Shown: positions 6,566-20,196 of the stretch, one piece after another
Numbering within the stretch: the first letter of the stretch is position 1
How the letters are laid out: each line of letters opens with the position of its first letter
Origin: an uncultured Chthonomonas sp.
Lineage (GTDB): Bacteria; Armatimonadota; Chthonomonadetes; Chthonomonadales; CAJBBX01
Direction: 5' to 3'
Length of the DNA stretch: 34,576 nucleotides
Assembly (NCBI GenBank): GCA_903885605.1
Contig: CAISJD010000025.1
Coordinates: forward strand, 1 to 34,576
The notes under the pieces: generated by a model
The model's database searches: none
What the model was told of the DNA's origin: nothing
What the model saw: only the letters and a program-made list of their open reading frames with translations
Made by a program: the position numbers and the translations under genes

Positions 6566-9500
6566 ATGCACATCGCGCTGTCGGTCTTGCTTCTCGCCGC
6601 ACCAGCGGCGGCCGAGCCTACCACCGGTACGACCATCATGGAGGCCCGCTTCGGCCGCGCCGAAATCGATACCGTGCGCCCCGCGCTCCGGTCGCTGACG
6701 CTCCGGCGGTCGGGCGGGGCGCTGGAGCCCCACTCGATCCTGGCGCCCATCGGCAGCCCCTGGCCGCGCGGCGTGGCGGGATGGGCCGAAGGCGGCTACA
6801 CCTACGCGGTGGATGCGGCCGGCAGGCGCTACGAGAGCCGCTACCTGCGCCCGGACCGCGTGGTCACGAGCGCACCGGGAAAGCTGATCCTGGAGGGCGT
6901 GAAGCTGGCGGCGGGGCCGGACGAGAAGCCCGTAGCAACCGAGCGCTGGGTGCTTTGCACCGTGGGCGGCGACCTCTCGTGGAGCGTGGAGCGGCGTTGG
7001 CTCGTCCCCTTCACGGCGCGTCTGGCCGGTACGCCGGGCCTCTTCTCCTCCTTCCGGCGCGCCACCGACGCCGAGCTGCTGCCCAACTCCGTGACGCACA
7101 CGCTCTGGGTGCAGCCGGATGGCCTGCGCTCCTGGTTCGATCCCACCTACCGGGCGTGGCCCGCCGACTACAAGCTCTCGGTGGACAACTGCGCCGTCGT
7201 CACCAAGCCCGACACATGGGCCGTGGCCAAGCTCTGGACCAGCTGGCACGCCGAGGCCGACCCGAAGCTGACGGTCAAGGGCGGACACCTCTATCGCAGA
7301 GGCTTCTTCGGCTGGCGAGCCGAACTGGGCGCGGTCTCTTCGCCGGTGATGCCGCGGACCTACCGTGCGGGCGAGGTCGAGCGCGTGACGCTGACCGTGG
7401 CGACCGTCGACAAACGCGCCACAGGCTACCAGTTGGCCGCCCATGTGCCGGACAAGGAGGTCCAGGGCGCCCTCCAGAGCTTCTACGCATCGCTGCTCAA
7501 CGGCGGCGTGGTGAACGACCAGAAGCACTTCAACTTCGGCAACGAGACGGACGGCTGGTACTACGACGGCTCGACCTGGATGCAGGGCCTGGCTTTGGCG
7601 GCGGGCGTGCCGGCGGCAGGCAAGACGGCGCAGGATCCGTATGACGTGGCCTCCGCCTTCCGAGGCCACCTGGCAGCCATCGTGGGGACGCTGGACCCGA
7701 CCGGCCGCGCCAACTTCGGCTACGACTGGGGCGGCGGGTTCGCCGATGCGCGGCTGAACAACGTCATCGGCGCACGGGAGTACCTGCTCCATACCGGCGA
7801 CCTGGCCTTCGTCAAGCAGATCCTGCCGGACCTGGAACGCGGCGTGGGCTGGTTCCTGGCGCGCCGCAAGGAACATGGGCTGGCCGATCTGGGCGAGGTG
7901 GCGCACTGGTACTACGACGCCATGCCCAGCAGCGGCGTGAACGCCAACCACAACGCCCTGCTCTACCGCGCGTGCCGGCATCTGGCGGAGATGGAGGGCG
8001 CGGCAGGCCATGGCGACAAGGCGCGCACGTACACAGAGATCGCCGACGAGGTTCGGGCGGCCTTCAACGCCCTCCTCTGGAACGAGGAGGCGCCCGGCGG
8101 CCCGCGCATTACCGACTGGATCGCGCACAACGGCGAGAAGGTGACCTACGCGGCCGACGTCTGCCAGTTCCCGGCCGTGGCGTTCGGCATGGTCCCGCAG
8201 GACCGCGCGCGCAGGCTGCTGGCCACGCTGGACCGGCGCATCGCCGAACTGGAGCGCGACACCGGCTACACGGGCTCGGCCTCGCTCTCGGCCTACTGGC
8301 CCGTGCCCGATCACATCAACGGATTGGCCTGGCAGCGCGCCTTTCCGATCTACATGAACTGTGGCTCGTTCCTCTCGATCACCTACTACGAGATCATGGC
8401 GCGCATCCAGGCCGGCGACATCGACGGCGCGTGGGAGCGCATGAGGCGCTTCAGCCAGGGCATCCGGCGGCACAGCGGCGCGGGCAACAACTGGGTGACC
8501 GTCAAGGGCGAGGTGGCCGCGGGGGCCGACGAGCCATACCTGTCGGACATGGTGGTGGTTCCCGCGGCTCTGGTGCGCGGCTTCCTCGGCATCGAGCCCA
8601 CGTGGGACCGGCTCGTGGTGCGGCCGCACCTGCCAAAGGGCTGGAAGCGCGCCTCCGCAGAAATCCTCTACAAGGGCGTGCGGACGCGCGTAGACATCGA
8701 GGGCCAAGAGGTCACGGTGACGCCGCTGGGCCGCGCGTTTACGCCCGCCAAGTCCCTCACGTGGGAGGTTCGCTCCGGGCCCGCGGCCGAGTGGCAGATG
8801 ACGGTATCGCGCCACTTCGCCAACGGCGCCACCCCGCCGCGGGTGAGCGCGGGCATCGACCTGCACGGCGGCTCGGCGGTGACGCTCAGGCGCGTCCGTC
8901 CCGCCCACGGACTGGGCGGGCGCTGGTCCATGGACGCGCAGGGCGTCCTGGGTGCGGAGGGACCGATGGCGTTCGGCCTGCCGGGCCCGCTCCCCGGCAT
9001 AGGTTCCGCGCGGTTTGAGGGCCAGAGCCACCTGTCGGCACCGAACCCGGGAGCCTTCAGCTTCGGCCCGACGGAGAGCTTCACGGTGCAGTGCCGGTTC
9101 CAGACCAATGCGCAGGATAGCCGCGTGCTGGTCTCCCGGCCGAACGCCTACTGCCTCTACGTGAAGGAGGGCAAGCTGGCCGCGTGGATCATGCAGGACG
9201 GCCTCGCGCACCGCGAGGCGCTGGGCAGCGGCCAGGCGGCCGACGGCGCATGGCATCACGCCGCCGCCGTCTACGACCGCCGCGCACAGCGGCTCGCCCT
9301 CTACCTCGACGGCAGGCTTGACACTCCGGACGGCTCGCCCGCCCCGGCGAACCCCGTCGCAATCTCCGCCATCGGGGCCTCCACCAGTGGCGCGCCGGTG
9401 AGCATCGGCGGCCTGGGCCAGGGCTTCCGGTTCATCGGCTCGATAGCGGATGTGCGTATCCATGCCGGCGCCCTCACGGCCGGCGAGTTTTCCTACCCGT

Positions 9501-9892
9501 TGGTGAGGGACGAGAGCGTACCGACGCCGCGCCTCTCGGCGAAGGGCGAGTACACCAGCAGCGTGTGCGACTGGGGCCAATCCGTTTCGCTGCAGTCTAT
9601 GGAATTGGAGTGCGCCCTCAACGGCGGCTCTGTCCATGCCGTGCTGGAGTGCTCCGGCGACGGCTTCAGGACCGTGGGCAAGAGGGTGGCGGTCGTGATC
9701 CGGAGCGGGCGCCGGAGCTACGCGCTACCGACTGGCCCATGGCGCTACGCCCGCATCCGGCTAGCCCTCACGGCAGGCAAAGACAGCCGGCGGACGCCAC
9801 AGGTGACCTGGGTCCGGTTCCGAGCGCAGGCGGCGAGTGTGGATCCTGCTCACGGCGTGCAGGGACTTGCGGCCCCGACGGCGCATCTATAG
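6566..9892 (+). CDS. Secreted six-hairpin glycoside hydrolase with C-terminal LamG domain
   Basis: A 1108-residue protein. The ATG at 6566 is chosen because GAGGAG lies 8 bases upstream and the protein then begins with a signal peptide (MHIALSVLLLAAPAAAEP). Residues about 300-700 have the look of an (alpha/alpha)6 barrel related to GH78/GH63-type enzymes. Visible are FGNETDGWYYDGSTWMQG, a YDWGGGFADAR stretch, and the closing segment with a VVRPHLPKGW motif typical of the beta cap after such barrels. Residues about 815-975 form a concanavalin-like LamG fold (FTVQCRFQT, WHHAAAVYD, ALYLDGRLD), probably glycan-binding. I cannot name the GH family or substrate. The DUF1080 and GH95 genes follow on the same strand, which suggests polysaccharide breakdown outside the cytoplasm. 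Confidence 0.82.
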   Translation: MHIALSVLLLAAPAAAEPTTGTTIMEARFGRAEIDTVRPALRSLTLRRSGGALEPHSILAPIGSPWPRGVAGWAEGGYTYAVDAAGRRYESRYLRPDRVVTSAPGKLILEGVKLAAGPDEKPVATERWVLCTVGGDLSWSVERRWLVPFTARLAGTPGLFSSFRRATDAELLPNSVTHTLWVQPDGLRSWFDPTYRAWPADYKLSVDNCAVVTKPDTWAVAKLWTSWHAEADPKLTVKGGHLYRRGFFGWRAELGAVSSPVMPRTYRAGEVERVTLTVATVDKRATGYQLAAHVPDKEVQGALQSFYASLLNGGVVNDQKHFNFGNETDGWYYDGSTWMQGLALAAGVPAAGKTAQDPYDVASAFRGHLAAIVGTLDPTGRANFGYDWGGGFADARLNNVIGAREYLLHTGDLAFVKQILPDLERGVGWFLARRKEHGLADLGEVAHWYYDAMPSSGVNANHNALLYRACRHLAEMEGAAGHGDKARTYTEIADEVRAAFNALLWNEEAPGGPRITDWIAHNGEKVTYAADVCQFPAVAFGMVPQDRARRLLATLDRRIAELERDTGYTGSASLSAYWPVPDHINGLAWQRAFPIYMNCGSFLSITYYEIMARIQAGDIDGAWERMRRFSQGIRRHSGAGNNWVTVKGEVAAGADEPYLSDMVVVPAALVRGFLGIEPTWDRLVVRPHLPKGWKRASAEILYKGVRTRVDIEGQEVTVTPLGRAFTPAKSLTWEVRSGPAAEWQMTVSRHFANGATPPRVSAGIDLHGGSAVTLRRVRPAHGLGGRWSMDAQGVLGAEGPMAFGLPGPLPGIGSARFEGQSHLSAPNPGAFSFGPTESFTVQCRFQTNAQDSRVLVSRPNAYCLYVKEGKLAAWIMQDGLAHREALGSGQAADGAWHHAAAVYDRRAQRLALYLDGRLDTPDGSPAPANPVAISAIGASTSGAPVSIGGLGQGFRFIGSIADVRIHAGALTAGEFSYPLVRDESVPTPRLSAKGEYTSSVCDWGQSVSLQSMELECALNGGSVHAVLECSGDGFRTVGKRVAVVIRSGRRSYALPTGPWRYARIRLALTAGKDSRRTPQVTWVRFRAQAASVDPAHGVQGLAAPTAHL

Positions 9893-9959
9893 GCCGACAA
9901 CGCCGGACCTCGGCGCCGATAGGCACGCCGGCACGGTGCGAGATACGAAAGGACTACGA

Positions 9960-10685
9960 ATGAACTGCATGAACTGGACGCGGGGGGCTCTGGCGGCGGT
10001 CGGTTGCCTGGCGGCCGTCGGTGTGGCGGGCGCTCAGGATGCCGCCAAGCCCAAGGTGGTCAAGCTGCCGACCAAGGCCCCCAGGGGCGCTGTGGTGCTG
10101 CTTGGCAAGAACGCCACCGACGTCGCCGCCAACTGGTACCAGCGGCGGACGACCAATGACGCCGGATGGACCATGGACGCTGCTGGAGTGGTGACGCACC
10201 CAAAGCACGCCTACGACATCACGAGCAAGAAGGAGTTCGGCGACTGCTTCATCCACGTCGAGTTCCAGTGCAGCGCCGATGCCGACGGCAAGCCGCTCGA
10301 CGGCGGCAACTCGGGCGTGGGCCTGCAGGGGCGCTACGAGATCCAGATCAACAACTCATTCGGCAAGGCCGCCGAGATGCATGAGTGTGGCGCCGTCTAC
10401 GACCGCGTGGCGCCCATCGTCATCGCTTCAAAAAAGGCCGGCGAGTGGCAGACCTACGACATCAAGTTCACCGCGCCCAAGGTGGCGGCCGACGGCGCCG
10501 TCACCGCCCGGCCGCGCGTCACCGTCTGGCAGAACGGCATCCTGATCCAGGACAATACCGAGATCCCCAGCCCCACGGGCATCCAGTACGGCGACTTCAA
10601 GGGCGAGGTGGCGGTGGGTCCCATCGTGCTGCAGGGCGACCATGACGTCGTCAACTACCGGAATATCTGGGTGAAAACCAAGTAA
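9960..10685 (+). CDS. DUF1080 (3-keto-disaccharide hydrolase type) secreted protein
   Basis: A 241-residue protein with a signal peptide ending near GVAGAQDAA. The start at 9960 has AAAGGA 6 bases upstream. The DUF1080 beta-sandwich shows GNSGVGLQGRYEIQI and a later segment with GPIVLQGDHDVVNYRNIWV, both family hallmarks; the latter usually reads GPIxLQDHGxxVxFRNIxI. Some members of this family hydrolyse 3-keto-glucosides made by Gfo/Idh-type oxidoreductases. Two such oxidoreductases are encoded in this window, but not adjacent to it. It follows the glycosidase gene by 67 bases and is followed by a hairpin, so it may end the first transcript. Confidence 0.88.
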   Translation: MNCMNWTRGALAAVGCLAAVGVAGAQDAAKPKVVKLPTKAPRGAVVLLGKNATDVAANWYQRRTTNDAGWTMDAAGVVTHPKHAYDITSKKEFGDCFIHVEFQCSADADGKPLDGGNSGVGLQGRYEIQINNSFGKAAEMHECGAVYDRVAPIVIASKKAGEWQTYDIKFTAPKVAADGAVTARPRVTVWQNGILIQDNTEIPSPTGIQYGDFKGEVAVGPIVLQGDHDVVNYRNIWVKTK

Positions 10686-10696
10686 CCCGTACCTGC

Positions 10697-10724
10697 GCGC
10701 GGGATGGGGCTTCCCTTCCCGCGC
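10697..10724 (+). terminator. Hairpin between the DUF1080 and GH95 genes
   Basis: GCGCGGGA (10697-10704) pairs perfectly with TCCCGCGC (10717-10724) around a 12-base loop. It starts 12 bases after the DUF1080 stop and ends 28 bases before the GH95 start. There is no T tract. It could partly terminate or set the relative expression of the two genes. Confidence 0.4.
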
Positions 10725-10751
10725 CACGTGAGGGGCCGCGAGGAGGTCGAC

Positions 10752-13238
10752 ATGAGCGATTTGGGTATCACTCGGCGTGGTTTCCTGGCCGCCTCGGCGG
10801 CGGCCTCCTCGGCTATCGGGCGTGGAGGGCCGGCAGCGGCGGCGCCTCCGCAGGAGCGCCTTCGGCTCTGGTACGAGGCGCCTGCGGAGCGCTGGCAGGA
10901 CGCCCTCCCGCTGGGCAGCGGCCGCCTGGGCGCCATGGTCTTCGGAGGCGTTGGGCACGAGCGGATCGCGCTGAACGAGAGCTCGGTCTGGTCCGGCTCG
11001 CCGGAGGATAACGACCGGCCCGACGCGCATGAGGCCCTTCCCGAGATCCGCCGCCTGCTGGCCGAGGGCAGGAACGCCGAGGCCGCCGACGCGATGATGG
11101 CGCATTTCACCTGCAAGGGGTCAGGCTCAGGCAACGGCAACGGCGCCGACGTGCCCTTTGGCTGCTACCAGGCCCTGGGCGACCTGACGCTGGACTTCGG
11201 CGACGCCTCGGGAGGCGTCTCCGGCTACGTGCGTGAGCTGGACCTCGCCACGGCTACCGCCTCGGTCACCTTCACCCGGCGCGGCGTGCGCCACACGCGC
11301 ACAGTCATCGCTTCGGCCCCTGACGAGGTGATCGCCATCCATCTGGCTGCCGACAAGCCGGGTTGCGTCTCGTTCCGGGCCGGCCTGACGCGGTCCCAAA
11401 GACGGCGAACCGCGGCCTCGGGGCCGTCCGAGCTCCTGATGACCGGTGTGCTGAACGATGGCCGCGGAGGCGCGGGCCTTGCCTACGCCGCCCGCCTCCG
11501 CGCAGTGGCCGAGGGCGGGTCCGTCCGCACCGACGGCGAGACGCTTATCGTGGAGGAGGCCGACTCTGTCCTGCTCCTGCTGGCCGCAGCCACCAACTAC
11601 AGGGGATTTGCAGGACGCCGCACCGCCGATCCGCTCGCCGCCACTCGAGAGGATGTGGCAGAGGCTGCCGTCAAGGGCTACGAACGGCTCCGGCGCCGCC
11701 AGAAGGCCGATCATGCCCGCTGGTTCGGCCGCTGCTCCCTTCGCCTTGGCCCGGAGGCGCCCACGCCGAACGCACTGCTTCCCACGGACAAGCGGCTGGT
11801 CGCCTTCGCCCGCGGCGCCGACGACCCGGGCCTGGCCGCGCTCTACTTCGCCATGGGCCGCTACCTGCTAATCGGCTCCTCGCGTCCGGGTGGCCTGCCC
11901 GCCAACCTGCAGGGGCTCTGGGCCGAGGAGATCCAGACGCCATGGAACGGCGACTGGCACCTCGACATTAATGTGCAGATGAACTACTGGCCCGCGCAGG
12001 TCTGCGGCCTCGCCGAGCTCCAGGAGCCGCTGAACAAGCTGATCGCCTCGCTCGTGGCGCCGGGCCGCAAGACCGCCGAGGCCTACTACGCCGCCCGCGG
12101 ATGGGTCGCGCACGTCATCACCAACCCGTGGGGCTTCACCGCGCCCGGTGAGCATGCCTCGTGGGGCGCCACGGTCAGCGGCTCGGCGTGGCTCTGCCAG
12201 CACCTCTGGACCCAGTACGCCTACACACGCGACCGGGCGTTCCTCGCCTGGGCCTACCCGATCCTGAAGGACTCAGCGCTCTTCTACCTGGACAACCTCT
12301 GGGAGGAGCCGAAGCGCAAATGGCTCGTTACGGGCCCCTCCAACTCGCCGGAGAACAGCTTTCGCCTGCCCGACGGACGCACCGCGGCGGTCTGCATGGG
12401 CCCGACGATCGATATGCAGCTACTCCGGGAGCTCTTCGGCAATACCGCCCGCGCCGCCGCCATGCTGAAGGTCGATCCCCAGCTGCGATCCGAGCTCACG
12501 GCGAAGGCGGCCCGCCTGGCGCCCAACCAGATCGGCCCGGACGGCCGCCTGCAGGAGTGGCTGGAACCCTACCCCGAGCCGGAGCCGCACCACCGCCATG
12601 TCTCGCCGCTCTACGCCCTCCACCCCGGCGAGGAGATCACGCCCTGGGGCACGCCCGAGCTCGCCGCCGCCTCGCGCAAGCTGCTGGAGGGCCGCGGAGA
12701 TGAGGGCACCGGCTGGTCGCTGGCCTGGAAGGTGAACTTCTGGGCGCGGCTGGGCGACGGCGACCGGGCGCACCGGCTCCTGCGCATGCTGCTCCGCCCC
12801 GTGGCTTCCACAGAGATGAACTACATGGGCGGCGGCGGCTCCTCGAACAACCTCTTCTGCTTCCACCCGCCCTTCCAGATTGACGGCAATTTCGGCGGCT
12901 GCGCGGGGATCGCCGAGATGCTGCTTCAGAGCCATGGCGGGCGGGTGAGCCTCCTTCCGGCCCTGCCTGCCGCCTGGCGCGACGGCGCCTACACCGGCCT
13001 GCGCGCGCAGGGCGAGATCCGGGTGGACCTGGAGTGGAAGGACTGCGCGGCGACGATCGCCCGGGTCAAGGCGCCGCCTGGCGTGGTGGTTCATCTGGCG
13101 CCGCCGCCCGGGCAGGAGATCTGCCGGGTCTCTGCTGACGGGATTGAGGTGCTGACCCACGGTGACGGCGACGTTCGAACCTGGACCACGCGGTCGAGCA
13201 TGACCTACGCGGTGACCTTCAGGAAGAAGCCCGCCTGA
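10752..13238 (+). CDS. GH95 family glycosidase (alpha-L-fucosidase or alpha-L-galactosidase type), Tat-exported
   Basis: An 828-residue enzyme. AGGAGG lies 5 bases before the ATG at 10752. The N-terminus carries a twin-arginine signal ([11 protein letters not shown]), so it is probably exported folded. The GH95 N-terminal domain begins near 38 with [14 protein letters not shown]. The (alpha/alpha)6 catalytic part includes [11 protein letters not shown] (405-415), Glu602 in LQEW as the likely general acid, and Asp711 in IDGNFGG as the likely base. In characterised alpha-1,2-fucosidase AfcA two asparagines (NIN) activate the base. Here the first is Asp405 and only Asn407 is kept, so substrate or mechanism may differ. 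It is followed by a strong terminator and converges on the GH106 gene. Confidence 0.92.
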
Positions 13239-17461: not shown

Positions 17462-18760
17462 ATGAGCACCGGCAGTAAGCAGCAGACCCTGAGCCGCCGA
17501 GCCTTCGTCGGAGGCGCGGCCGGAGCCGCATGCATGATCGGCGCACCGGCATCGGCCGCCCGGACCTACCGCGCCAACGAGAAGCTGCGCATCGGCGTCA
17601 TCGGCGTGGCCAACCGCGGGTGGGCCAACTTCGAGGGCGTTATGGGCGAGGAGATCTGCGCCGTCTGCGACGTGGACGACAGCTACCTCTACTCCGTCGC
17701 CCAGCAGTTCCCGGACGCGGCGCAGTTCCGCGACTTCCGCAAGCTGCTGGAGATGCCCGGCCTGGACGCGGTGGTCGTCAGCACGCCGGACCATACCCAT
17801 GCGCCCGCCACCGCCGCGGCCCTCCGCGCAGGCCTCCATGTCTACTGCGAGAAGCCGCTGACGCACACCGTGCAGGAGGCGCGCATCGTGGCCGGACTGG
17901 CGGCCAAGCACAAGCGCGCCACGCAGATGGGCACACAGATCCACGCCGAGCCCAACTACCGCCGCGTGGTGGAGCTTGTTCAGGCCGGAGCCGTCGGCAC
18001 GGTCCGCGAGGTTCACGTCTGGTGCGGCGGCGCCTACAGCGGCGGCGCGCTCCCCACCGACCAGCCGCCCGTGCCCGTGGGCCTCGATTGGGACCTCTGG
18101 CTCGGACCGGCCCAGCCCATCGCCTACCACCCCCGCTTCGCGCCCTTCGTTTGGCGCAGCTGGTGGGCCTTCGGCAACGGCCGCCTGGGCGACATGGCAT
18201 GCCACCACATGGACCTCTCCTTCTGGGCGCTGGGCCTGCGCCGGCCCACCACCGTGGAGGCCCAGGGCCCACCCGTCGATGCCTATTCGTGCCCCGAGTG
18301 GCTGGAGGTGCGCTACGCCTTCCCGGCCACCGACAAGCGGCCGGCCGTGGAGCTCACCTGGTACGACGGCGATCGCCGGCCCGCCAAGCTCCCCGAGCCC
18401 TTCCGCAGCGGGTGGGGCGCCGGCACGCTCTTCGTGGGCGACAAGGGCATGCTCCTGGCCGACTACGGCCGCCGCATCCTCCTGCCGGAGAAGCAGTTCG
18501 AGGGCTACCAGGCCCCGGCGCCCACCATTCCCGACAGCGTAGGCCACCATCAGGAGTGGATCAACGCCTGCAAGACCGGCTCGCCTACCACCTGCAACTT
18601 CGACTACGCGGGTGCGCTGACCGAGGCCGTGCTGCTCGGTTGCGTCGCCTATCGCGCCGGAGCCAAGCTGGAGTGGGACGCCGCCAAGCTCACCGCCCGG
18701 GGATGCCCCGCCGCCGACAAGCTGATCCGCGGCACGCACCGCCAGGGCTGGCAAGTCTAG
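17462..18760 (+). CDS. Gfo/Idh/MocA family NAD(P)-dependent oxidoreductase with Tat signal
   Basis: A 432-residue protein. GAGGTGA lies 6 bases before the ATG. The N-terminus has a twin-arginine motif (SRRAFVGGAAG, Arg12-Arg13) and hydrophobic stretch, so the enzyme is probably exported with its cofactor bound. The Rossmann nucleotide site is at about 43-53 (RIGVIGVANRG). The catalytic-loop EKP is at 130-132, and the substrate-side motif with MACHHMD is at 245-251. Family members oxidise sugars or cyclitols at a hydroxyl. The octaheme cytochrome gene begins 26 bases after the stop, so the two are probably co-transcribed. A link in which electrons pass from the oxidoreductase to the cytochrome is conceivable but unproven. 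Confidence 0.92.
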   Translation: MSTGSKQQTLSRRAFVGGAAGAACMIGAPASAARTYRANEKLRIGVIGVANRGWANFEGVMGEEICAVCDVDDSYLYSVAQQFPDAAQFRDFRKLLEMPGLDAVVVSTPDHTHAPATAAALRAGLHVYCEKPLTHTVQEARIVAGLAAKHKRATQMGTQIHAEPNYRRVVELVQAGAVGTVREVHVWCGGAYSGGALPTDQPPVPVGLDWDLWLGPAQPIAYHPRFAPFVWRSWWAFGNGRLGDMACHHMDLSFWALGLRRPTTVEAQGPPVDAYSCPEWLEVRYAFPATDKRPAVELTWYDGDRRPAKLPEPFRSGWGAGTLFVGDKGMLLADYGRRILLPEKQFEGYQAPAPTIPDSVGHHQEWINACKTGSPTTCNFDYAGALTEAVLLGCVAYRAGAKLEWDAAKLTARGCPAADKLIRGTHRQGWQV

Positions 18761-18786
18761 ATCGACGACGTAAGGAGAGCAGCACC

Positions 18787-20196
18787 ATGACACGAACCGC
18801 GAGAATGGCCGTATGGGCGATGATGCCCGCGGCCCTGCTGGCGATGACCGCCGCCCTGGAGTCCGGCATCTGGGCGCAGGGCAAGGCGAAGCCCGCCGCC
18901 AAGCCCGCGCAGAAGGCCGCCCAGAAGCCCGCTGTCGAACCCGCCGGGCCGCCCGTCTCTGCCGAGGGCAAGCGCTGCCTCGGCTGCCACAACCAGGTGA
19001 CCCCCGGCGTCGTAAAGGACTGGCTGGGCAGCAAGCACTCCGCCATGGGCATCGACTGCGCCTCCTGCCACGTCGAGGCCGGCAAGGGCGACCGGCCCGA
19101 CGCCAAGAACCACCACGGGTTCAAGATCGCCGTCATCGTGACGCCCAAGACCTGCGAGGGCTGCCATGAGAGTGAGGCCAAGGAGTTCCAGGCCAGCCGC
19201 CACGCCGACGCCGCCAAGTTCATCGGCAGCCTCGACAACGTGCTGGGCGAGGCTGTGGGCGGCGGACCCGTGGCCGACGCGGGCTGCAAGCAGTGCCACG
19301 GCTCCACCGTCGCCATGAAGGATGGCAAGGTCGACCCGGCCACGTGGCCCAACACCGGCATCGGGCGCATCAACCCCGACGGCAGCAAGGGCGCCTGCAC
19401 CTCCTGCCACTCGCGGCACGCCTTCAGCGTGGCCCAGGCCCGCACGCCCGAGGCCTGCGGCAAGTGCCACCTCGGTCCGGACCACCCGCAGAAGGAGGTC
19501 TGGGAGGAGTCGAAGCACGGTAGCCGATACCACCAGGCCCTTGCCCTGGGCGGCAAGCAGGGGCTCACCGACCCGGCAGGCAAGTGGCTACCCGGCAAGA
19601 GCTACTCGGCCGGTCCCACCTGCGCTAGCTGCCACATGAGCGCTACCCCCAGCATCCCGGTGACGCACGACGTCGGCAAGCGCATCAGCTGGACGCTCCG
19701 CCCGGCCGTCAGCACCAAGCTACCCGAGTGGGAAGCCAAGCGCAAGGATATGCAGGACGTCTGCACCCAGTGCCACAGCCGCAGCACCGTGAACGGCTTC
19801 TATACGCAGTTCGACCGCGTGGTGGGGCTCTACAACGAAAAGTTTGCCACGCCCGCCAAGGCCATCATGGATGGCCTGACCGCCTCCGGCAAGCTCACAG
19901 GCCAGCCCTTCGACCACAAGATCAAGTGGACCTACTACGAGCTCTGGCATCACGAAGGCCGCCGCGCACGCCACGGGGCCGCCATGGCCGGACCGGACTA
20001 CGCCTGGTGGCACGGCATGTACGAGGTGGCGAAGAACTTCTACACCGAGTTCATTCCCGAGGCCCGCGAGCTGGACCCGGCGCTAGTTGACAAGGTGATC
20101 AAGGGGATGCCCGAGCACGACTGGTTCACCAAGGGCATGTCCAAGGCGGACCTGGAGGGGGTCATCAAGTTCTACCAGGGCCGTTACGCTCCGTAA
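18787..20196 (+). CDS. Octaheme c-type cytochrome, hydroxylamine-oxidoreductase-like
   Basis: A 469-residue periplasmic protein. AAGGAG lies 9 bases before the ATG at 18787. A signal peptide (to about residue 30) is followed by an Ala/Lys/Pro linker. Eight CxxCH motifs begin at Cys64, 91, 123, 167, 204, 224, 279 and 326. After the last two come THDVGKRISWTLRPAVS and ELWHHEGRRARHGA, segments typical of HAO-type octaheme proteins. Tyr405 lies in AGPDYAWWHG; whether it equals the cross-linking Tyr of oxidative HAO needs an alignment. Oxidative members make NO or N2 from hydroxylamine or hydrazine, and reductive members (epsilon-HAO) reduce nitrite. No NapC/NrfH-type quinol partner and no cytochrome c maturation gene is in the window. 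It follows the Gfo/Idh gene directly. Confidence 0.93.
   Translation: MTRTARMAVWAMMPAALLAMTAALESGIWAQGKAKPAAKPAQKAAQKPAVEPAGPPVSAEGKRCLGCHNQVTPGVVKDWLGSKHSAMGIDCASCHVEAGKGDRPDAKNHHGFKIAVIVTPKTCEGCHESEAKEFQASRHADAAKFIGSLDNVLGEAVGGGPVADAGCKQCHGSTVAMKDGKVDPATWPNTGIGRINPDGSKGACTSCHSRHAFSVAQARTPEACGKCHLGPDHPQKEVWEESKHGSRYHQALALGGKQGLTDPAGKWLPGKSYSAGPTCASCHMSATPSIPVTHDVGKRISWTLRPAVSTKLPEWEAKRKDMQDVCTQCHSRSTVNGFYTQFDRVVGLYNEKFATPAKAIMDGLTASGKLTGQPFDHKIKWTYYELWHHEGRRARHGAAMAGPDYAWWHGMYEVAKNFYTEFIPEARELDPALVDKVIKGMPEHDWFTKGMSKADLEGVIKFYQGRYAP

Follow-up and report, generated by a model that had tools for sequence, protein, structure and literature searches.

Octaheme cytochrome c gene and its upstream neighbor

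The window, i.e., the whole 34,576-nucleotide stretch of DNA analyzed from an uncultured Chthonomonas sp., encodes an octaheme cytochrome c (P0001) at 18787–20196 on the forward strand, which also carries the other window features given below. The open reading frame comprises 469 amino acids and a stop codon, with no internal stops in its translation. A probable ribosome-binding site, AAGGAG (18772–18777; inferred from the sequence), is positioned 9 bases 5′ of the ATG, and the protein begins with a probable Sec signal peptide of about residues 1–31 (18787–18879), which has its hydrophobic maximum at residues 7–25 and an approximate end point. Eight CxxCH motifs start at residues 64, 91, 123, 167, 204, 224, 279, and 326: CLGCH (18976–18990), CASCH (19057–19071), CEGCH (19153–19167), CKQCH (19285–19299), CTSCH (19396–19410), CGKCH (19456–19470), CASCH (19621–19635), and CTQCH (19762–19776). 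When the letters of the protein were shuffled 5000 times, the mean number of CxxCH motifs was 0.03 and the maximum was 2, against 8 in the real protein.

The fourth motif is the putative site of the catalytic heme, as we presume from the heme order of hydroxylamine oxidoreductase (HAO). Asp232-His233 (19480–19485) aligns with the Asp-His pair of HAO, to which we ascribe a presumed catalytic role. Two further segments were placed by alignment: ELWHHEGRRARHG (19939–19977), the signature of the clade to which the protein belongs, and GPDYAWWHG (residues 402–410; 19990–20016), which corresponds to the region of HAO Tyr467. The aligned column of the latter contains no Tyr, and its His409 is invariant in the clade. 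The first-pass annotation had reported eight CxxCH sites, THDVGKRISW, and ELWHHEGRRARHG, and all of these were found in the translation of 18787–20196.

The window genome (G000; 5.6 Mb, 100% complete) has one copy of the octaheme gene. Two sister species also possess it, an uncultured Chthonomonas (Loc090907-8-6m; 94% identity) and an Armatimonadetes genome from Lac Pavin (92%). In another genome of the same family (G008; L076 2783–3795), the gene is reduced to a truncated, frame-broken remnant.

The upstream neighbor (17462–18760) encodes a Tat-type Gfo/Idh oxidoreductase (PF01408/PF19051; Tat assigned from an SRRAFV motif), and 26 bases separate its end at 18760 from the octaheme start at 18787, as originally noted. 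Its nearest family is the BT_2158 glycoside 3-dehydrogenase (325 bits, below the cut-off of 750), the founder of which is described in the available text of PMC11300592 as periplasmic and required for disaccharide use. Profile matches to GH106, GH95, GH32, and a 3-keto-disaccharide hydrolase bear out the sugar-degradation neighborhood that had been proposed for the window.

Family assignment and active site

The PF13447 score of the octaheme, 98.4 bits, exceeds the cut-off (21.9) and places the protein in the HAO-type octaheme superfamily, and all 8 heme motifs were in register with the other 48 rows of the alignment. The closest solved structures were Ignicoccus hospitalis 4qo5 (5.6e-45) and then Nitrosomonas europaea HAO (NeHAO, 1fgj; 5e-23). 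The family profile ranked the solved chains in the order of 4qo5, 6h5l (Kuenenia), NeHAO, and Kuenenia HAO and hydrazine dehydrogenase. An AlphaFold model built from 21 family members was weak (mean pLDDT 57.6, pTM 0.48) and was used for confirmation of the superfamily only; conclusions at the residue level were drawn from sequence alignments. In a Foldseek search with this weak model, all 10 matches with E≤0.001 were HAO-type octahemes, with TM-scores of about 0.3, and the top two were 4qo5 and the Kuenenia “reducing HAO-like” complex.

A tree of 49 rows was constructed from the window protein, its relatives, and three solved chains, with no epsilon-HAO, BOGUAY_0691, or ONR rows. The window octaheme and 29 relatives formed a 30-member clade (support 100/98) that spans at least 8 phyla, with about 47–59% identity to the octaheme outside the genus. 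Its sister group comprised two plasmid proteins, from Desulfosarcina ovata and Desulfobaculum (97/92), and the next group out was of the Ignicoccus type (100/100). In the 49-row tree, the octaheme lies outside the 4qo5 sub-clade, in the neighboring group. NeHAO, Ruegeria HAO, Kuenenia HAOr, and ten further same-phylum proteins were located on the opposite side of a 100/100 split, which was robust to the removal of the three longest rows (100/99), although long branches remain a caution. The HAO-type label of the first-pass annotation thus stands for the superfamily, but not for the HAO clade proper, since the protein falls on the Ignicoccus side of the split. The same-phylum proteins on the HAO side represent a second octaheme lineage in this phylum (L016–L018, L020, L022–L026, and L028).

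Three known enzyme types were considered and judged not to fit. The hydrazine dehydrogenase model NF052343 (NCBIfam) gave 72.1 bits against a cut-off of 900. Octaheme nitrite reductase (ONR) and NrfA were set aside because the sequence has no CxxCK; ONR matched the family profile over about 80 positions only. The third was oxidative HAO of the Nitrosomonas type, from which the tree separates the octaheme with the support given above.

NeHAO has eight aligned hemes and the Asp-His pair in common with the octaheme. However, its cross-link tyrosine, Tyr467, sits in GGWTYTEGW (within NPGGWTYTEGW, 1fgj residues 461–471), and the corresponding segment of Ruegeria HAO, which has haoB next downstream, is NPGGFTYSNGW. 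On the octaheme, Tyr467 falls on W407 when counted from the shared glycine and on W408 in the HMMER placement. The earlier proposal that Tyr405 is equivalent to Tyr467 is contradicted by the alignment, in which Tyr405 is 2 columns out of register relative to the anchoring glycine. As judged from these alignments, the octaheme has no counterpart of the cross-link tyrosine. The residue directly before the anchoring glycine is His in 32 of 32 proteins (the 30-member clade and the plasmid pair; His409 in the octaheme) and Tyr (WYG) in all ten same-phylum proteins on the HAO side. A 2025 study describes, in the text available (PMC12758564), His in reductive HAO-like enzymes at the position where oxidative forms have Tyr. 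His409 of the clade appears to be in line with this rule, the column being matched by sequence only.

These results bear on whether the octaheme is an oxidative hydroxylamine or hydrazine dehydrogenase. Its superfamily and conserved Asp-His pair are compatible with such a role; however, the missing Tyr467 counterpart, a tree position apart from NeHAO and Ruegeria HAO, and the low score of the hydrazine dehydrogenase model make it highly improbable.

The other solved relatives each differ from the octaheme. Ignicoccus 4qo5, the best solved relative and on the same side of the tree, belongs to a separate sub-clade, has Asp-Val in place of the Asp-His pair retained in the octaheme (D232-H233), and carries another C-terminal motif. 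Kuenenia HAOr (6h5l_A) also lacks the tyrosine (WWWG, compared with WWHG in the octaheme) and retains Asp-His. However, it groups with oxidative HAO (99/93) on a long branch and, according to the title of 6h5l, associates with another protein in a complex.

Partner genes in the window genome and neighborhoods of relatives

As previously claimed, the window showed no NapC/NrfH gene; across the window genome, the PF03264 profile gave no match either. This profile was found in 20 of the 26 genomes searched and was absent from 5 of the 11 same-phylum octaheme genomes (G000, G001, G035, G073, and G065). A divergent NapC/NrfH may escape detection because PF03264 gave no match in G162 either, although an NrfH-like partner lies in locus L049 of that genome. 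The profile search of the window genome found neither NrfD (PF03916) nor a nitrate-reductase-type molybdoenzyme; its two PF00384 matches resemble NuoG or formate-dehydrogenase-type proteins. The window genome encodes the hydroxylamine reductase Hcp (TIGR01703, 738 bits) and an NirA-like siroheme reductase that scored below its cut-off and may act on nitrite. Cytochrome bd is present, and no heme-copper oxidase was found in this genome.

The first-pass annotation also suggested a search for partner cytochromes elsewhere in the genome. The genome does encode other multiheme proteins, although their positions tie none of them to the octaheme. CxxCH sites in the genome numbered 295 in total against 271 for a reversed-pattern control, and, therefore, only clusters were followed. 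The survey covered CxxCH clusters among the first 100 of the 295 sites and a PF09699 search, and its counts are lower bounds. At least six proteins have four or more CxxCH (the window octaheme, one each in L057, L058, and L111, and two in L110). On contig C201 (L110 6683–10962), two genes lie close together, one for a DmsE-like protein with nine CxxCH and the other for a protein with eight CxxCH and a lipobox-like N terminus, a few kb from the NirA-like siroheme reductase; this pair is suggestive of an outer-membrane electron conduit. Four large PF18582 proteins (hydrazine-synthase-alpha middle domain), with two or three CxxCH each, are encoded at L059 4954–7806, L060 6412–10044, L061 4248–8480, and L062 1954–6012.

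In the same genome, a tetraheme gene lies directly behind or overlaps a Tat-signal oxidoreductase-like gene at L057 5671–7322 and L058 5768–7400. The partner gene encodes either an aldo/keto reductase with a Tat signal or a similar protein that has no Pfam match, and three species of the genus share such pairs (sister loci L116–L119). With the window pair, there are three oxidoreductase-cytochrome pairs in the genus, and among the six proteins listed above, three follow a Tat-type oxidoreductase-like gene. A Tat-like motif occurred in 6 of the 110 called genes in 11 stretches of the window genome. Most of these stretches had been selected for nearby heme genes, and the second Gfo/Idh gene of the window escaped the motif pattern. 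We regard the pairing of oxidoreductases with cytochromes in this genus as suggestive; it was recognized after the fact, and none of the eight other same-phylum loci (L068–L075) has the octaheme pairing.

The octaheme may be envisioned as a periplasmic electron sink for the Gfo/Idh sugar 3-dehydrogenase encoded next to it, which would be exported by Tat and re-oxidized by the octaheme. The 26-base spacing, adjacency in all three species of the genus, resemblance to BT_2158, and the two further multiheme genes behind Tat-signal aldo/keto-reductase-like genes all agree with this possibility. However, no such neighbor was found beside the octaheme in any of the 8 other loci, and relatives in other phyla have nitrogen-related neighbors. 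Moreover, NAD(P) stays tightly bound in Gfo/Idh enzymes, and cytochrome reduction is not a known activity of this family. We consider this role very unlikely. A combined reading, in which the genus pairs Tat-exported NAD(P)-type sugar oxidoreductases with multihemes and the octaheme passes 3-keto-sugar electrons to nitrite or hydroxylamine in place of NapC, also appears to have little chance of being correct. The two-way proposal of the first-pass annotation is accordingly narrowed: a reductive nitrite/hydroxylamine enzyme is the best supported, whereas a sugar electron sink appears very unlikely.

We examined the neighborhoods of 23 relatives (L033–L055) in named genomes outside the genus; L056 was excluded because its best segment covered residues 162–235 at 30%. 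The counts for these 23 loci are based on longest-ORF-first gene picking, which took wrong-strand ORFs in high-GC loci; genes in the Armatimonadota loci were picked by codon usage instead. In 7 of the 23, a conserved gene of about 493 amino acids with five CxxCH is located 3–64 bases downstream of the octaheme. The one scanned (L040) matched PF03264 (2.6e-8) and the NrfH model (1.7e-12, below its cut-off). Two of the seven (L049 and L050) have a common upstream gene, which was an ammonium transporter in the scan of L049. In five others (L035, L036, L038, L039, and L054), a tetraheme gene lies downstream of the octaheme together with two more conserved genes. Of these loci, L036 was scanned in full: the two additional genes encode an FeS protein and an NrfD-type protein, and next come genes for a NapA-like molybdoenzyme (610 bits, short of the NapA cut-off) and a NapG-like protein. 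A similar cluster is described in Thermosulfurimonas in the accessible part of PMC5276818. No nitrogen partner set was seen near the octaheme in the remaining 11 of the 23, and several of the contigs end near the octaheme gene.

A NapC/NirT gene lies directly upstream of the octaheme in both the Desulfosarcina and Desulfobaculum plasmids. The Desulfosarcina ovata plasmid (L065 96–16241) carries the octaheme with NapC/NirT, hcp, FprA, norR, and nitric-oxide reductase. A Tn3 transposase is also encoded near this octaheme, and L065 is a possible mobile nitrosative-stress island.

The eight other same-phylum loci encode no further protein with three or more CxxCH near the octaheme. In another Armatimonadota family, a siroheme NIR_SIR/PCP_red/Fer4 gene (L068 8461–9378) overlaps the octaheme start by 4 bases. 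An FAD oxidoreductase (L071) and a 3-keto-disaccharide hydrolase (L072) neighbor the octaheme elsewhere in the phylum. In L073 (G065), 35 bases separate the octaheme relative from an upstream hydrazine-synthase-alpha-domain gene (9080–12058), and a Tat-motif gene is found about 5 kb from the octaheme.

Some of these loci are relevant to whether the octaheme reduces sulfite, tetrathionate, or another oxyanion, or acts as a broad-specificity electron-transfer cytochrome. The siroheme neighbor in L068 could be a sulfite enzyme, the Marithrix relatives adjoin SoxY and flavocytochrome sulfide dehydrogenase genes, and octaheme enzymes are described as promiscuous in the available text of two studies (PMC6449678, PMC8840924). 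However, informative neighborhoods more often contain Nap, NrfH, Amt, Hcp, or Nor genes, and the octaheme retains the HAO Asp-His pair. We consider these activities unlikely, albeit conceivable.

Probable function and biological meaning

Since the cross-link tyrosine is missing, the protein falls in the present clade, and its relatives have nitrogen neighborhoods, we favor a reductive role. The octaheme is probably a periplasmic reductive HAO-type cytochrome c, most likely a nitrite and/or hydroxylamine (or NO) reductase that forms ammonium or hydroxylamine. The location in the periplasm, the coordination of heme 4, the substrate, and the product are all inferred. Reduction would take place at a five-coordinate heme 4 without a tyrosine cross-link. 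The product would be ammonium, or hydroxylamine that cytosolic Hcp then takes to ammonium. Electrons would have to arrive by a route other than a recognizable NapC/NrfH, such as other periplasmic multiheme cytochromes. The host is a lake bacterium that degrades plant sugars and probably has a microaerobic or anaerobic lifestyle. Because a nitrate reductase was not seen in its genome, nitrite would need an outside source. The octaheme may act as an overflow sink for electrons or as a nitrosative detoxifier, using nitrite made by neighbors.

Enzymes of the epsilon-HAO type, compared here by description, resemble the window protein as Tyr-less octahemes (Nautilia profundicola HaoA and Caldithrix abyssi epsilon-Hao). 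As presented in the accessible text of the respective studies, the Nautilia HaoA system has Hcp in the same cell (PMC3701875), similar to the window genome, and Caldithrix epsilon-Hao works without NapC (PMC5317091), which is comparable to the window genome with no NapC detected. In contrast to the epsilon-HAO type, a Nap cluster and NapC/CycB were not found in the window genome, whereas partners are present in relatives.

Another octaheme, the orange cytochrome BOGUAY_0691 (511 amino acids) of Guaymas Beggiatoaceae, has nitrite reductase, hydroxylamine oxidase, and hydrazine oxidase activities according to the available portion of PMC6449678. Marithrix, a large sulfur bacterium related to the host of BOGUAY_0691, has a member in the window clade, and taxonomy and size suggest that BOGUAY_0691 is an ortholog of this clade. 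The same portion reports that Ca. Thioglobus, which has a homolog of this octaheme, does not grow on nitrite as the sole acceptor. This non-growth counts against a reductive role, as do the possible NirA-like enzyme, the 11 of 23 partnerless relatives, and the absence of NapC, NrfD, and nitrate reductase matches in the window genome.

Among other Armatimonadota, the Hebobacteria are described in the text available of PMC10290634 as having Hao-like genes (4 of 13) and Hcp genes (9 of 13). Our literature search joining Armatimonadota with octaheme found nothing. The present results extend a known kind of enzyme to a new host and do not reveal a new enzyme. Because the octaheme is probably reductive, its annotation as a “hydroxylamine oxidoreductase” of nitrification would be wrong. 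The results place a probable reductive octaheme in freshwater Armatimonadota that degrade sugars, and the usual quinol partner was not found with it. The present study also defines a well-supported octaheme clade across at least 8 phyla, the gene neighborhoods of which point to nitrate/nitrite ammonification.
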